From positions 62,001-126,000 of the forward strand of contig CAMATH010000001.1 in NCBI GenBank assembly GCA_945860955.1: 64,000 nt of DNA, in the 5' to 3' direction. The notes beneath the pieces were generated by a model, which was given only the letters and a program-made list of their open reading frames with translations, was not told where the DNA came from and did no database searches. The stretch is from Planctomicrobium piriforme (GTDB lineage: Bacteria > Planctomycetota > Planctomycetia > Planctomycetales > Planctomycetaceae). The translations under genes were made by a program, and so were the position numbers. Of the stretch, positions 14,418 through 15,687 are shown piece after piece (the stretch's first letter is position 1; every line of letters begins with the position of its first letter).

Positions 14418-14507
14418 TTATCCCTTACGGTGCCGGATCCGTGCGCGCATTCGGCGCTTCTTACGCCCCAGTTTTCGGCGGCCTTTCCCGGTCTTCTTAA
14501 CACCCAT
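14418..14507 (-). CDS. 29-residue highly basic protein, ribosome-associated type (COX24/bS22-like?)
   Basis: Minus-strand ATG at 14507 to TAA at 14418 encodes 29 residues beginning MGVKKTGKGRRK and ending RARIRHRKG; 18 of 29 are Lys, Arg or His. A good ribosome binding site (GGAG, 7 bases before the ATG) precedes it, with a second AAGGAG further up. Size and composition recall the tiny rRNA-embedded proteins bTHX and bS22 and the COX24/AURKAIP1 C-terminal domain, which have the same Lys/Arg-rich single helix. The exact family is my inference. It is monocistronic, between the cytochrome/WD40 gene and the divergent aldo/keto reductase, and is short enough to be missed by ordinary gene calling. 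Confidence 0.75.
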   Translation of the reverse strand: MGVKKTGKGRRKLGRKKRRMRARIRHRKG

Positions 14508-14685
14508 GCTCTGGCTCCCGCTCCTTCGTTGATCAAGGACGACAGTTTTGTGGAGGTTTGACGATTGTTCCGATATAACGGCTCCAGGATTCGTCTCACT
14601 TGGGGCCGCCCTCGGTTCATCGTGCGTTCGAAAACGCGCAAGCGGCCATGATACAGCATCTCTTCATCGAATAACAGCCACATCT

Positions 14686-15687
14686 ATGCAGTACCGCAGG
14701 CTCGGCCACTCCGGCGTTCAGGTTTCTCCGATTTGTCTGGGAACGATGATGTTTGGCGGCCCCACCCCGCCCGACGAGTCCGTTCGCATCATGCACGCCG
14801 CCCTTGACCGCGGTATCAATTTCTTCGATACCGCCGACATTTACGTCGCGGGAGGATCCGAAGTCGTTGTCGGCCAGGCGATCGCCGACCGCCGCGACCA
14901 GGTCGTTCTAGCCACCAAAGGGCGCGGCCCTATGGGAACCGGTCCCAACGACGCCGGTGCCAGTCGCGTCCACCTGCGCCAGGCGCTCGAAGCCAGCCTC
15001 CGCAGACTGAAGACCGACTACATTGACCTCTATTACGTGCACACCCCCGACTACGGAACCCCGATTGAGGAGACCCTTCGCACGCTCGATGACTTCGTCC
15101 GCGAGGGCAAGGTGAATTACATCGGTTGCTCCAACTTTCGGGCCTGGAGGTTGATGGAGGCCTTGGGGGCCAGTGAACGGTTGAATCTGCATAAATTTCA
15201 ATGTGTGCAACCGCTCTACAACATTTGCAACCGCGATATCGAAGTGGAACTCCTCCCGCTGTGCCGGGAACACGGGGTGGGTGTCGTGGGCTACAGCCCG
15301 CTCGCCCGGGGAATCCTTTCGGGAAAATACAAACAGGGAGAGAGCTTCCCCGAAGGCAGCCGCGCGGCACGCAACGACAAACGCATGCAGCAGGCCGAAC
15401 TTCGCGACGAGAGTTTCGAGCTGGCCGAGGCTCTCACGCGGTACTCCGAGCAGACCGGCCGAAAACTCAGCCAATTCGCCCTGGCGTGGTGCCTGGCGAA
15501 TCCAATTGTCACCTCGATCATCATCGGCCCCAGAACCTGGGAACAGTTCGAAGACAATCTCGGAGGGCTGGAGATCGCCATCAGCTCCGACGACGAAGCC
15601 GCCGTCGATCAATTGGTTCCCCCAGGGGAACACACCGGGAAGGGATTCCGAGACCCGGCGTACCCGGTGACTGGTCGGGGTCGATAG
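14686..15687 (+). CDS. Aldo/keto reductase
   Basis: A 333-residue NADPH-dependent oxidoreductase of the (beta/alpha)8 AKR superfamily. The catalytic tetrad is visible: Asp48 and Tyr53 (FFDTADIY), Lys78 (ATKGR) and His119 (YYVHTPD). The C-terminal GYSPLARGILSGKY and TSIIIGPRTWEQFEDNL are typical of the YajO/Kv-beta-like branch acting on small carbonyl compounds. The start at 14686 (MQYRRLGHSGVQVSPICLG) matches the family N-terminus. The substrate is unknown. A canonical terminator follows at 15839-15863. Confidence 0.93.
   Translation: MQYRRLGHSGVQVSPICLGTMMFGGPTPPDESVRIMHAALDRGINFFDTADIYVAGGSEVVVGQAIADRRDQVVLATKGRGPMGTGPNDAGASRVHLRQALEASLRRLKTDYIDLYYVHTPDYGTPIEETLRTLDDFVREGKVNYIGCSNFRAWRLMEALGASERLNLHKFQCVQPLYNICNRDIEVELLPLCREHGVGVVGYSPLARGILSGKYKQGESFPEGSRAARNDKRMQQAELRDESFELAEALTRYSEQTGRKLSQFALAWCLANPIVTSIIIGPRTWEQFEDNLGGLEIAISSDDEAAVDQLVPPGEHTGKGFRDPAYPVTGRGR

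Follow-up and report, generated by a model that had tools for sequence, protein, structure and literature searches.

A highly basic reading frame of 29 amino acids (aa) in Planctomicrobium piriforme is well supported, on comparative sequence evidence, as a real, translated, and conserved gene. With moderate confidence, we interpret its product as an unannotated small planctomycete ribosomal protein, probably a divergent bS22. The gene lies on the minus strand of the window (the whole 64-kb stretch of DNA that was analysed), where the original prediction had placed a 29-residue ORF: its coordinates, strand, translation, and length are all confirmed, as is a GGAG 7 bases before the ATG. The features are as follows.

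14418..14507, minus strand: CDS of the 29-aa basic protein, MGVKKTGKGRRKLGRKKRRMRARIRHRKG, with stop codon TAA
14515..14518, minus strand: Shine-Dalgarno-like GGAG, 7 nt before the ATG (GGGAG occupies 14515-14519)
14521..14526, minus strand: second Shine-Dalgarno-like sequence, AAGGAG, 13 nt before the ATG
14508..14685, minus strand: intergenic region from the CDS to a divergent aldo/keto reductase gene

The aldo/keto reductase ORF (named by eye) is on the plus strand, with an MQYRRLGHSGV start near 14686. A search for a sigma-70 consensus promoter of the 29-aa gene found none; if the gene has a promoter of its own, this must be within 14508..14685. Lysine and arginine make up 16/29 residues of MGVKKTGKGRRKLGRKKRRMRARIRHRKG (55%), or 17/29 when histidine is included (59%), less than the two thirds of positively charged residues first claimed. 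Calculation gives a charge of about +15.6 at pH 7 and a pI of about 12. Among ATG-started ORFs of 22–45 aa in the window, the 29-aa frame alone reaches 50% K+R, and 40 first-order Markov simulations of the window produced 0 such ORFs.

The 29-aa gene is present in nearly every sampled genome of the class. Among 59 genomes that share its genus, family, or class, its own genome counted, 57 carry it in one copy each, at 67–100% identity over the aligned part (E from 1e-10 to 3e-4), while secondary matches in this search (E above 0.04) are no better than chance. The homologues in related genomes that the original prediction had proposed to look for were found. In a phylum-wide draw, the gene occurs in 60/61 same-class genomes among the matches listed. 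No copy could be recognised in two draft assemblies, G015 and G030, and a search with a degenerate pattern also failed to find the gene there; the lone pattern match, in G030, was rejected as not being the 29-aa gene. The family has the near-invariant core GRRK[LIV]G[RS]KKRRMR[AS][RK]IRHRK, and start, ribosome-binding site, and stop are preserved among relatives. Most relatives have a GGAG-type motif upstream, and the position matching GGAG is enriched in G across the family.

Outside the class the distribution is patchier. Profile searches recovered shorter relatives of the form MAKPRRRRK[IV]GSKKRRARWK[VI]R[HN]K in planctomycete families f80, f75, f104, and f53, MAFKPRRRRKIGSKKRRxR... in family f52, and MGKPRRRRKVGSKKRKARRDRRKR in family f105, most of them preceded by a Shine-Dalgarno-like sequence. 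Of the remaining planctomycete genomes beyond the class, most yielded no recognisable match. The conservation that the original prediction had set as a condition holds across nearly the whole class, with shorter versions in other families. In the GTDB collection, the matches listed are all in planctomycete records, and the plasmids, phages, and viral contigs searched contain 0 copies. Several metagenome-assembled genomes in the GTDB collection that are titled Candidatus Kuenenia stuttgartiensis (loci L134, L137-L139, L144, L149, L164, L168) carry a near-identical 29-aa gene; these titles are probably wrong. At loci L193-L201 (f80, f75, f104), the short homologue adjoins a divergent gene for a cysteine-containing protein of ~100 aa (MIQCKDCE...CDPF.NIKEPECL.KWQ). 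Several of these loci also have an ECF-sigma-like gene, and the downstream gene often resembles ferredoxin-linked ASKHA ATPases (both named by eye).

Codon-level constraint indicates that the amino acid sequence is what is conserved. Across 128 copies with distinct DNA, codon positions 1 and 2 are mostly 0.9–1.0 conserved over the core and position 3 about 0.3–0.6, close to background, with background-level conservation upstream of the ribosome-binding site and past the stop. Mean pS is 0.77 and mean pN 0.13 for this reading frame (pN/pS 0.16), whereas both other frames show the reverse relation of pS to pN. Together, the codon-position pattern and the excess of pS over pN argue for translation and for strong purifying selection on the product; they are the frame-preserving substitutions that the original prediction had named as support for a gene. 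That the ORF arose by chance, as its shortness and want of a database match might suggest, is refuted by this ratio together with the copies in 57 genomes and their E values, and we give the idea practically no credence. A leader peptide or structured RNA element regulating a neighbouring gene could likewise show up as a short frame behind a strong ribosome-binding site, but here third codon positions vary freely while the amino acids are fixed. Neighbours also differ between lineages, with none at most loci: a divergent aldo/keto reductase gene is upstream in 17/102 loci, as in the window, a gene for a cytochrome-domain protein is downstream in 13/102, about 19 loci in another lineage have a PanB-like gene downstream on the opposite strand, and further loci have different genes again (all named by eye, from single-linkage clustering of stop-to-stop ORFs in which the larger groups include antisense shadows). 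Because neighbours vary in this way, the ORF does not serve as the leader of a single operon, and regulation of a neighbour is largely refuted and highly improbable. No translation-gene neighbourhood or functional hint was seen among the loci of the 29-aa gene.

Existing family models do not cover this protein. Neither the single sequence nor a profile matched anything in Pfam, NCBIfam, or PDB sequences. The COX24_C profile, to which the original prediction had pointed, does not match the 29-aa protein either, and PF08213 (COX24_C) gave no match above cut-off over the 59 relatives. However, a Bacteroidota-type bS22 sequence itself scores just 12.1 bits against PF08213, whose cut-off is 23, and matches nothing in NCBIfam. 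PF08213 is therefore a weak test of the 29-aa protein; the PF08213/NF047430 models fall short of spanning the bS22 family. bTHX shares small size, basic character, and a G-K-G near the start with the 29-aa protein, but the two have no above-chance sequence similarity. PF17070 (bTHX) is over cut-off in 9 genomes of the class, at loci distinct from the co-occurring 29-aa gene. Because nine genomes hold a true bTHX and the 29-aa gene at another locus, bTHX is excluded; the 29-aa protein has no PF17070 match, similarity in a permutation test is at chance, and the bTHX relationship first proposed falls away. In these data, bTHX over the Pfam cut-off (L077-L085) is confined to two of seven sampled class families (f2, f4), and none was found in the window's own family.

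bS22 is a small-subunit protein analogous to mitochondrial mS38/AURKAIP1. The Borrelia protein, which is 61% K/R and had been unannotated, sits in a pocket of 16S h2/h27/h44/h45 and contacts 23S H68 (PMC10618245). Actinobacterial bS22 and eL41 have been placed in the same pocket as Bacteroidota/Borrelia bS22 (PMC10618245). If a length of about 28–33 aa and at least 55% Lys/Arg are taken as marks of a bS22-type protein, the present protein, with 29 aa and 55% K+R, falls within these bounds. As solved references we used Flavobacterium MPSGKKRKRHKVATHKRKKRARANRHKKKK (7jil chain 5), the Bacteroidota-type 9i5v chain 10, and Borrelia MPCGRKRKLKKISTHKRKKKRRKNRHKK (8fmw chain V). Bacteroidota/Borrelia bS22 resembles the 29-aa protein in being 28–30 aa, very basic, helical, and easily overlooked by gene callers, and in its [RK]-x-K-[VIML]-x-x-[HK]-K core and [NI]-R-H-[KR]-K end. 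The alignment has R-x-K-[VIL]..K...RH-K in common with one one-residue internal gap in the core. Differences are this one-residue deletion before R-H, KK for HK, a Gly-containing N-terminal part, and a similarity that is below any profile threshold.

The 29-aa family is likely, though not certainly, homologous to bS22. Similarity was tested with composition removed and columns permuted. Against Bacteroidota/Borrelia bS22 this gave z 3.5–3.9 and p 0.0013–0.0027 with A5, and against the three PDB bS22 sequences alone p 0.0057; about seven families were compared, which puts the best p near 0.01–0.02 after correction, and the similarity requires a one-residue deletion in low-complexity basic sequence. 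hhalign of the 29-aa family to bS22 was weak (E 0.054, probability 1%). In the same permutation test, bTHX, eL41, bL34, bL36, mS38, and actinobacterial bS22 were not above chance against the 29-aa family; as a yardstick, actinobacterial bS22 itself reaches only z 0.8 against the Bacteroidota/Borrelia group. Actinobacterial bS22 and mS38 (PF08213 COX24_C, NF047430) are alike in size range and composition, but differ in having no above-cut-off profile match in the 59 relatives and a nonsignificant permutation result. eL41 is also very basic, about 25 aa, and one helix, but its similarity to the 29-aa protein is composition and nothing beyond. Of the rRNA-embedded peptide related to bTHX, bS22, or COX24 that had been predicted, some resemblance to bS22 thus survives, whereas bTHX and the COX24_C model do not.

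Canonical Bacteroidota/Borrelia-type bS22 (MPCGRKRRR..HKR.KR..NRHKK) is present in 4/391 planctomycete genomes, from families f55, f81, and f17 (L182-L185, L202-L205); all four are drafts with 3–6% contamination, which may be its origin. One of these proteins, MPCGRKRRRRKIAKHKRDKRRRADRHKKK from genome G200, shares RRRRKI...KR and RHK with MAKPRRRRKIGSKKRRARWKVRHK, a short form of the 29-aa family, and looks intermediate to it by sequence. None of the four genomes (0/4) has a match to the 29-aa family among the matches listed, but because canonical bS22 is found in only four, we do not count this mutual exclusion as evidence.

The predicted structure and proposed role follow this comparison. 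AlphaFold2, run on a 30-aa homologue without RNA, predicts one helix (8–28; mean pLDDT 79, pTM 0.37), and the bend described for bS22 is not evident in its secondary structure. Size, charge, and helix fit proteins of the bS22/eL41/mS38 type, and we infer the ribosomal location from composition, size, constraint, and distant similarity. The peptide may be a basic helix fitted into a groove of 16S rRNA. Reasoning from Borrelia bS22, we would place it most likely in the h44/h27/h45 pocket, next to the decoding centre and to the side of the subunit interface where H68 lies. There it could brace h44/h27/h45 during 30S assembly and subunit joining.

Other roles for a conserved basic peptide have to be weighed against a divergent bS22. 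Lineage-specific ribosomal additions such as bL37 and bL38 exist elsewhere, and the 29-aa protein might belong to a ribosomal protein family of its own, lineage-specific, unrelated to bS22, and at a separate site in the 30S or 50S. The absence of a significant family match and the weak hhalign score would fit this, as would the invariant N-terminal G7, G9, and G14 without a clear bS22 counterpart, but the composition-corrected similarity to Bacteroidota/Borrelia bS22 and the near-intermediate planctomycete protein of G200 argue against it, and we regard it as the main alternative, though a less likely one. Basic peptides can also bind any nucleic acid, and the lack of translation-related neighbours would suit a non-ribosomal small RNA- or DNA-binding protein, whether an assembly factor, an RNA chaperone, or a nucleoid peptide. 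However, extreme sequence constraint with one copy per genome is what rRNA-embedded peptides typically show and is seldom the case for general nucleic-acid binders, and the 29-aa protein has both; its non-basic Gly and I/V positions are also fixed. A non-ribosomal binder therefore seems unlikely.

For most bacterial groups the list of ribosomal proteins is considered complete, yet this 29-aa protein is kept across a whole planctomycete class and covered by no family model. Among the papers searched, none names bS22 together with planctomycetes. If the protein is a divergent bS22, it would extend bS22-like proteins to another phylum; it could also be of consequence for translation and for the response to antibiotics, because whatever occupies the bS22 pocket contacts the decoding region as well as the subunit interface. 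If instead it is a new family, non-homologous to bS22, it would occupy a site of its own in planctomycete ribosomes and would be needed for their assembly or decoding. The gene is in addition a marker for the class.
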